Below, piece by piece: positions 15,226 to 16,425 of a DNA stretch of 64,000 nucleotides. Each line of letters opens with the position of its first letter. Positions within the stretch are counted from its first letter, which is position 1. The notes beneath the pieces are model-generated. The model saw nothing but the letters and a program-made list of their open reading frames with translations, was not told where the DNA came from and searched no databases. The DNA is from Crocinitomicaceae bacterium (GTDB lineage: Bacteria > Bacteroidota > Bacteroidia > Flavobacteriales_D > Crocinitomicaceae): NCBI GenBank assembly GCA_017984635.1, contig JAGNZC010000010.1, forward strand, positions 1 through 64,000, given 5' to 3'. The translations under genes were made by a program, and so were the position numbers.

Positions 15226-15702
15226 ATGAAAGTTAAAATTTATACCGACGGCTCTGCAAAGGGGAATCCTGGTCCTGGTGGCTATGGAATTGTTATGAAA
15301 TTTAATGATTCAGTAAAAGAATTTGCCAAAGGTTATCGCTTAACCACCAACAATAGAATGGAATTATTGGCTGTCATTACAGCTTTGGAAAACATGAAAA
15401 CGAATCAATATTCGATTGAGATTTTTTCAGATTCTAAATACGTCATTGATTCAATCACCAAAGGGTGGGTTTTTGGCTGGAAAACGAAAGGTTTTAAAGG
15501 CAAGAAAAACGCAGATTTGTGGTTGCGTTATTTAAACTTGCATTCCAAGTTCAATCTAACATTTCATTGGGTAAAAGGTCACGCTGGACATCCAGAAAAT
15601 GAGCGTTGTGACCTATTGGCAACGACAGCTGCAGACAATCCTCCTCATTTAATAGATGAGCAATTTGAGAAAAACCAAGAAAACAACGAAGCTTTATTTT
15701 AA
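15226..15702 (+). CDS. rnhA: Ribonuclease HI
   Basis: The enzyme cuts the RNA strand of RNA-DNA hybrids, for example R-loops and Okazaki primers. The catalytic carboxylates are visible: Asp8 (IYTDGSAKGNPGPGGYG), Glu46 (NNRMELLAV), Asp69 (IFSDSKYV) and Asp129 (ERCDLLA), and the basic protrusion region (KGWVFGWKTKGFKGKKN) is retained. The length of 158 residues is typical. It lies 23 bases after metH but has its own promoter-like sequence. The last 9 bases overlap the convergent next gene. Confidence 0.96.
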   Translation: MKVKIYTDGSAKGNPGPGGYGIVMKFNDSVKEFAKGYRLTTNNRMELLAVITALENMKTNQYSIEIFSDSKYVIDSITKGWVFGWKTKGFKGKKNADLWLRYLNLHSKFNLTFHWVKGHAGHPENERCDLLATTAADNPPHLIDEQFEKNQENNEALF

Positions 15703-16389
15703 TAGCTCTGTATTTCCATTCTTGATTAAACATGCTTTAGTAAATGTGTAAATTAATGGGTGAGGAATCTCACGTGTTGAAGATATTTGAGGGGTAAAAG
15801 CACATGCTAAAAAGAAATCATGTTTTTTTAAACTCACAACTTCAGGTTCTTCAAATTGATTATAGGCTTCAACATCAATGATTTCATCTTGAAGAGAATG
15901 GATGAGTTGTGGGTAAAGGCTGTAGCGCGATGAGGTTAATTCATCTGTACTGCGATTTTCATATAAGTGAATAAACTCTTTTGAATTTGGAACAATATGA
16001 ATCCGCTCAAAATGATTTCCTTCAATTAAATTTTCAGATATTAATTTTTCACCTTGCGTATTTAACTGAAACGAATTGATCAACACTTCGATGAATTGTT
16101 TGTATCCTTCACCTGTAATCAATACAGGAGTTTTTAGTTGCATTAAATGTTTGATGATTCCATTCAGGAAAAAAGCATTTAAAATAATTCCAGGTGCAAT
16201 CCAAATACCATCGTACTGTTCAAAATATGAGGGCTTTTGTTGTGCTGCCTCATTGATTTTAACCCAATAGTAATTGACATCAACTTCTAAAAAATGCTCC
16301 GCATGATCCAATGCTAAGTTAGTCGCTTGGTGCGAATTAAAGGTGAAATTGTAATCACCAATGATTGCTATTTTGAGCCTGTGACTCAT
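15694..16389 (-). CDS. CTP-synthase-like glutamine amidotransferase without catalytic cysteine
   Basis: The 231 residues resemble the class I glutamine amidotransferase half of CTP synthase: KIAIIGDYNFTFNSHQATN at the start, YDGIWIAPGIILNAFFLNG in the oxyanion region and a C-terminal PHPLIYTFTKACL resembling the P-P-LF--F-A end. Where active enzymes have GICLGMQ with the nucleophilic Cys, this protein reads ITGEGYK (residues 91-97), so glutamine hydrolysis looks impossible. Databases contain a family named CTP synthase C-terminal region-related protein, and this is probably a member. Its role is unknown. It converges on rnhA with a 9-base overlap. Confidence 0.72.
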   Translation of the reverse strand: MSHRLKIAIIGDYNFTFNSHQATNLALDHAEHFLEVDVNYYWVKINEAAQQKPSYFEQYDGIWIAPGIILNAFFLNGIIKHLMQLKTPVLITGEGYKQFIEVLINSFQLNTQGEKLISENLIEGNHFERIHIVPNSKEFIHLYENRSTDELTSSRYSLYPQLIHSLQDEIIDVEAYNQFEEPEVVSLKKHDFFLACAFTPQISSTREIPHPLIYTFTKACLIKNGNTELLK

Positions 16390-16400
16390 GTTGGGCTAAT

Positions 16401-16425
16401 AAAAAAAGCTGAATTATTCAGTTTT
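16401..16425 (-). terminator. Terminator of the downstream lipoprotein gene
   Basis: On the minus strand AAAACTGAA, TAA loop, TTCAGC, then a run of T residues, beginning 5 bases after the stop of the lipoprotein gene. The stem is short, so strength is uncertain. Confidence 0.6.

Follow-up and report, generated by a model that had tools for sequence, protein, structure and literature searches.

The glutaminase domain of the Escherichia coli CTP synthase PyrG is taken here to use C379, H515 and E517 as its catalytic triad, and Q383, E403 and R470 presumably make the contacts to glutamine. Stand-alone proteins related to this domain are covered by the curated model NF004836 (PRK06186), the CTP synthase C-terminal region-related (seleno)protein, which carries its nucleophile as Cys or, by prediction, Sec in the motif GxC/UxG. 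According to the accessible part of one report, a Sec form with the motif GxUxG is listed under NF004836 (PMC13188914), and the available portion of another predicts a Sec form in Desulfosediminicola (PMC12013277). As a sample of NF004836-type proteins, we used eight stand-alone proteins from a plasmid collection, which came from Methylobacter, Klebsiella, Enterobacter and five actinobacteria. All eight retain the nucleophile Cys (GTCGG or GTCAG) and Q383, and E403 is Glu in seven of them. The position of the catalytic His is occupied by Gln in seven and by Val in one, while that of E517 is Glu in seven and Gln in one. The superfamily is already known and partly curated. On the branch described here, which is devoid of the triad and accompanied by a lipoprotein gene, and on the gene pair, nothing was found in the titles and abstract starts searched, a literature that takes in few subscription journals and preprints.

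Location of the gene and family matches

The window, as we call the whole analysed stretch of 64,000 nucleotides of a Crocinitomicaceae genome, carries a gene whose product is referred to below as the pseudo-glutaminase. The genes concerned are as follows.

15694-16389, minus strand: pseudo-glutaminase gene, stand-alone and CTP synthase glutaminase-like; open reading frame with ATG start, 231 aa
16430-17071, minus strand: companion lipoprotein gene, 213 aa, with an SSC lipobox followed by HEIIPAP; immediately upstream, with a gap of about 40 bp
15226-15702, plus strand: convergent neighbouring gene for a presumed RNase HI, named by recognition of its sequence rather than by a family search; regarded as a neighbour outside the unit

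The 3' ends of the pseudo-glutaminase gene and of its convergent neighbour overlap by 9 bp (15694-15702).

Among curated models, NF004836 gives the best NCBIfam match of the 231-aa protein (102.4 bits, E 1.9e-29, residues 5-220), a score well under the curated cut-off of 260 bits, and two PyrG models match at 54.3 and 50.9 bits. The protein thus has the stand-alone size of about 230 aa and scores higher with NF004836 than with PyrG (102 vs 54 bits). Zero Pfam matches, GATase included, were obtained at E up to 10, and a PDB sequence search with the same E limit gave 16 matches, every one of them a CTP synthase. The synthetase domain is absent from the chain, the next gene upstream being that of the lipoprotein, and no signal peptide is visible in the sequence. 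The original prediction of a protein that stands alone without a synthetase domain therefore holds for this 231-aa frame.

Predicted fold

An AlphaFold model was built from the window protein together with 61 relatives, out of the 80 from the contig search, and reached a mean pLDDT of 88.9 and a pTM of 0.89. Among the 50 Foldseek matches listed for this model, all are CTP synthases. In a second comparison, run with VIA-align on the matches from Foldseek, CTP synthases occupy ranks 1-39 (Z 20.2-24.4), including 9kao_B with a Z of 24.4 and 2.8 A rmsd over 221 residues at 21% identity, and other class I amidotransferases follow from rank 40 (PuuD at rank 40 with Z 18.8, SpuA with 18.3). The class I glutamine amidotransferase fold is thus predicted to be present in the pseudo-glutaminase. 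A better match to another fold, which had been named as grounds for abandoning the CTP synthase-like assignment, did not occur, since CTP synthases top both comparisons; together with the sequence matches, this bears out the earlier claim of a fold like that of the CTP synthase glutaminase domain. PuuD, SpuA and GMP synthetase subunit A resemble the pseudo-glutaminase in overall fold (Z 17-19), but the latter differs from other class I amidotransferases in being without the catalytic Cys, His and Glu.

Loss of the catalytic triad

Two short segments of the gene correspond to the former catalytic positions.

16108-16116, minus strand: former nucleophile elbow, residues 92-94 (TGE), with G93 at the position of C379
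15787-15795, minus strand: residues 199-201 (TPQ), opposite E. coli H515-P-E517

The pseudo-glutaminase shares with the PyrG glutaminase domain its fold and the arginine R470, retained as R155, but it has neither the synthetase domain, nor the triad, nor the E403 segment. Aligned with E. coli PyrG, it is altered at every position of the triad, C379 being replaced by G93, H515 by T199 and E517 by Q201; in addition, L380 is replaced by E94 and Q383 by K97, the stretch around E403 is deleted, and the wing region is shortened. The elbow reads ITGEGYK, as originally described, and has a glycine opposite E. coli C379. That description was right that the nucleophile is gone, but it missed the replacement of the His and the Glu.

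In comparison with the NF004836-type proteins, the window family has Gly at the nucleophile (ITGEG instead of the GxC/UxG motif), Lys or Arg at Q383 and Gln at E517, and its E403 segment is deleted. The start G[DEN]x...H, a Trp after the second strand and PG(S)PY are common to the pseudo-glutaminase and NF004836, and PHPL near the end is shared with several NF004836-type members.

Two cysteines were considered as possible replacements. C196 was rejected, as its E. coli counterpart is the C of FVACQFHPE, which is not known to be catalytic. A Cys at residue 199, present in most relatives, was rejected for the window protein, which has Thr there, so that the Cys elsewhere in the pocket which could have restored a triad, as the original prediction allowed, is not found in this protein. 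By its sequence, the pseudo-glutaminase is without the Cys-His-Glu triad of a catalytic class I amidotransferase, and, to the extent that a sequence can decide this, the known mechanism of glutamine hydrolysis is ruled out.

Distribution and relatives

In the smaller genome set, copies occur in 37/37 Crocinitomicaceae genomes, one of them partial. An order-wide search found copies, among the matches listed, in 91/91 Crocinitomicaceae genomes, the unmatched rows starting with other families, so that presumably no genome of the family was missed. The family of these genomes was judged to be Crocinitomicaceae from the titles of close relatives, among which are Fluviicola, Taishania, Lishizhenia and Crocinitomicaceae bins. 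As for the other families of the order, a stand-alone copy is present in 2 of the 23 genomes of the smaller set, and the remaining matches in those 23 genomes are PyrG-sized frames, except for a 62-codon frame at a contig edge (G055). Order-wide, five stand-alone copies (G041, G056, G363, G390 and G418) and two PyrG genes were found outside Crocinitomicaceae. A search of 395 genomes of the phylum at E 1e-14, with at most seven candidates scored per genome, gave two matches, both from Crocinitomicaceae. The pseudo-glutaminase is a clean case of an amidotransferase domain without catalytic residues that is kept in every searched genome of one family.

The nucleophile position of the stand-alone relatives outside Crocinitomicaceae is occupied by Ser in G041, by Asp in G056, G363 and G418, and by Gly in G390; G041 has His and Gln at the other two triad positions. 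In an unrooted tree of 30 rows, two of them long, a branch with support 99/96 has the Flavobacteriales proteins on one side and, on the other, the NF004836-type proteins together with PyrG, which forms one group (100/100); two changes are needed in this tree for the NF004836-type proteins to group. The variety of nucleophile residues among the relatives, with Cys (or predicted Sec), Ser, Asp and Gly all represented, would allow the order in which the residues were lost to be studied.

Conservation and selection

Two sets of sequences were compared. The first is an alignment of 87 sequences, consisting of the window protein, 80 contig loci (the best 80 of 194 relatives found) and six more distant family genomes. 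Conservation inside residues 59-68 and 114-122 is partly by construction, because these two regions served as the patterns of the contig scan; for this reason, 56 distinct family copies from whole-genome searches, which are independent of the pattern scan, were checked as a second set. The two sets are not independent of each other, because several species occur in both.

T92, G93 and Q201 are invariant in 87/87 sequences and in 56/56 scan-free copies. At position 199, the 87 sequences have 82 Cys, two Thr, two Leu and one Ser, and the 56 copies have 47 Cys, three Thr, three Leu, two Tyr and one Ile; at position 94, the 87 sequences have 72 Glu, 14 Asp and one Ala. In these alignments, the replacement residues at two of the three triad positions are fixed and the old His position is variable. 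The 87-sequence alignment has 29 invariant positions, 23 of which are still invariant in the scan-free copies, and the conserved residues comprise GDxNF...H..TN, PG, TG, R155-x-S157 and PQ..S..HP. In the copy that diverges most among those seen (L195, G499), D12 is replaced by Asn and N24 by Ile.

The gene has kept open frames of 225-267 codons at 80/80 contig loci. Values of dN/dS, calculated for pairs with dS 0.2-1, are 0.025, 0.037, 0.053 and 0.056 in four of 36 pairs (dS 0.24-0.65), the remaining 32 pairs being saturated or nearly so. These comparisons indicate that the pseudo-glutaminase is under purifying selection.

Conserved residues tend to follow the C-terminal ends of the sheet strands. 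Nine of the 29 invariant positions fall within the 40 of 231 positions that follow five strands (p 0.04), or, with four strands and 32 positions, at p 0.008, and only two of the 29 lie in the 35 positions that precede strands. When the positions of the scan patterns are removed, the count is 7/24 (p 0.09 for five strands, 0.02 for four). Since the strands were chosen by hand, without coordinates, this is only an indication that the former active-site face is still the functional face.

We regard it as moderately probable that the pseudo-glutaminase is a cytosolic protein which does not hydrolyse glutamine by the known mechanism and is retained for binding a ligand or a partner. Binding rather than the cutting of glutamine is suggested because the cutting residues have been lost and yet the gene is well preserved, beside a lipoprotein gene. 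In the proposed course of events, a relative of the CTP synthase glutaminase domain would have retained the fold, lost glutamine hydrolysis and been kept for binding, and the former glutamine site, together with the surface that faced the ligase, may now bind a small molecule or a protein partner; the tendency of conserved residues to follow the strand ends makes such a new binding face probable. That the protein was recruited to some role other than glutamine hydrolysis, as originally suggested, has good support, because the triad is gone, the gene is found in every searched genome of the family and selection is purifying; the different hydrolase that was also named there is no more than possible.

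The companion lipoprotein

A comparison of genome context, which had been proposed along with the original prediction, revealed a near-constant companion that the prediction itself had missed. The lipoprotein gene is adjacent at 18 of 21 loci, the three others being a contig-edge copy (L061) and two relatives outside Crocinitomicaceae, and it lies upstream on the same strand at 78/78 of the contig loci with room for it (of 80). In the smaller set, it was found in 36 of 37 Crocinitomicaceae genomes, the miss being a genome with the locus at a contig edge (G027), and one weak partial match was obtained outside the family (G040, E 5.5e-5). In the order search, the lipoprotein occurs in 91 of 249 genomes, which are the same 91 that hold the pseudo-glutaminase, at a distance of at most 146 bp upstream on the same strand in 90 of them; in the remaining one (G501), a match that is partial only lies at 389 bp. 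It was not found in the other 158 genomes of the order (E 1e-6, with up to 12 candidates per genome scored). The genomes of the five stand-alone relatives outside Crocinitomicaceae gave no lipoprotein match, and none was seen around the gene in three of them (L191-L193).

The model of the lipoprotein has a pLDDT of 93.5. No Pfam or NCBIfam match above cut-off was obtained, and a PDB search gave nothing at E 0.001 or better; the best VIA-align row, LpqH with a Z of 9.0 over 111 residues, is too weak to use. The mean column identity is 41% in the lipoprotein alignment vs 72% in that of the pseudo-glutaminase, and the lipoprotein therefore evolves faster.

A further element lies between the two genes of the window.

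16401-16421, minus strand: weak hairpin with a run of seven T, inside the roughly 40-bp gap that separates the lipoprotein and pseudo-glutaminase genes

Terminator-like hairpins with a stem of at least 6 are present in the gap at 23 of 79 loci, compared with a mean of 0.6 and a maximum of 2 in 20 mononucleotide shuffles, and the median distance from the end of their stems to the beginning of the match is 16 bases; the remaining gaps are short and have no hairpin. Under another rule (a perfect stem of 5), 10 of 79 gaps contain a hairpin, including that of the window, which the stem rule of at least 6 misses, and a scan of the window for consensus terminators gave none in this gap. The hairpins in the 23 gaps argue against simple co-transcription there, so that a simple operon with the lipoprotein, which was considered, is weakened.

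The pairing is a solid genomic fact, which could nevertheless lack functional meaning. That the two genes have unrelated functions and have stayed together by an accident of slow rearrangement is possible, if on the whole unlikely, and would be compatible with a binding role of the pseudo-glutaminase. The hairpins between the genes, the faster evolution of the lipoprotein and the outside relatives without a lipoprotein match are in keeping with such an accident, as is the fairly stable position of other neighbours, for a small upstream gene is kept at 62 of 75 loci and, downstream, the convergent RNase HI gene at 51 of 76 loci with room. Against it, these neighbours, taken as controls, are less constant than the lipoprotein, the pair is kept within 146 bp in nearly all of the genomes though the flanking genes change, the wider neighbourhood varying between genomes, and the lipoprotein was not detected among the candidates scored in the order outside Crocinitomicaceae.

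Under the binding role preferred here, the pairing may be functional, for example if a cytosolic sensor or regulator were tied to the expression of an envelope protein, and this part of the proposal is the weaker one. Direct contact between the two proteins is unlikely, because one has no visible signal peptide and the other has a lipobox. If the link to the lipoprotein were functional, a cytosolic binding protein would be tied to the envelope in little-studied, mostly aquatic bacteria. The broadest version of this proposal, in which a glutaminase domain became a regulator that binds a nucleotide or metabolite and forms with an envelope lipoprotein a two-gene module fixed in the Crocinitomicaceae core genome, by a path from which altered relatives (Ser, Asp or Gly at the nucleophile) survive in sister families, is tentative and rather doubtful.

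The small gene upstream of the lipoprotein (L063-L080, e.g. L070:4677-4991) encodes a protein of about 105 aa, of which 13 of 14 copies have RA, mostly IRA, as their last residues. Two copies of this protein were scanned, with no Pfam match above cut-off, and the gene was not seen around the pair in the window.

Other possible roles and the full-length PyrG

The pseudo-glutaminase could still be an enzyme with a new chemistry, in which H20, T92, S118, E150, R155 and H210 would form a catalytic site that replaces the glutamine pocket. These six residues are invariant in the 87 sequences, H20, E150, R155 and H210 also in 56/56 scan-free copies, and conserved Ser, Thr, His, Asp and Glu could form a different active site; the Ser, Asp and Gly at the nucleophile outside Crocinitomicaceae could likewise mean that the chemistry was changing and not simply lost. 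However, the structure matches are CTP synthases and class I amidotransferases and indicate no other enzyme class, and we consider this role unlikely.

Of the 26 genomes of the genus, 25 have a full-length PyrG in an open frame of 524-566 codons, and in 25/25 of these pyrG and the pseudo-glutaminase gene lie on different contigs. The sole miss is the window's own assembly (G000, 94% complete), in which pyrG was not found, probably because of an assembly gap. A split CTP synthase, in which a free glutaminase serves a lone synthetase, was rejected, because PyrG is complete and on another contig in all 25 genomes.

As a special case of binding, the pseudo-glutaminase might regulate CTP synthase as a mimic of its glutaminase domain, by sitting on the surface of the synthetase or in the GTP site. 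The two proteins have the same fold, nearly all genomes of the genus hold a full PyrG that could be its target, and the conserved GDxNF loop after the first strand takes the place of the GKY loop of PyrG. In the accessible part of a study of the fly CTP synthase, residues 306-310 are among the GTP-interacting regions (PMC8325340), and from the numbering we infer that these belong to the same loop as GKY/GDxNF. On the other hand, the counterparts of the PyrG lid and wing, as these segments are named in the available portions of two sources (PMC9138612, PMC8325340), are shortened or replaced, and pyrG is on another contig in 25/25 genomes; regulation of this kind is quite improbable. Finally, that the gene is a decaying relic of a glutaminase, as the lost catalytic residues might suggest, is hardly credible and in effect refuted by the low dN/dS, the open frames at all 80 loci and the presence in all 91 family genomes.

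Related records and their labels

Some close matches carry the names of other groups (Chitinophaga, Chryseobacterium, Kuenenia and Glaciecola), which are probably wrong labels, and the gene pair also occurs in bins named Chitinophaga, Chryseobacterium and Kuenenia (L090, L098 and L108). In the record CP034120.1 (L158), titled Glaciecola amylolytica, nearly the entire 10.7 kb aligns at about 75-83% with the Fluviicola-type loci L150, L151 and L140, and the record therefore looks mislabelled, at least in that region.

Three NF004836-type stand-alone proteins (L084:3992-4687, L085:3504-4196 and L086:728-1435) are labelled 'CTP synthase' in public plasmid-collection records, a misleading name and a practical trap. 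As well, the NF004836-type gene adjoins a DUF523 gene in the Klebsiella record (L085:2849-4196). According to the accessible part of one report, a glutamine amidotransferase (COG0504) and DUF523 are both included in nine new predicted selenoprotein families (PMC12013277), and this, together with the adjoining genes in Klebsiella, hints at a shared pathway.
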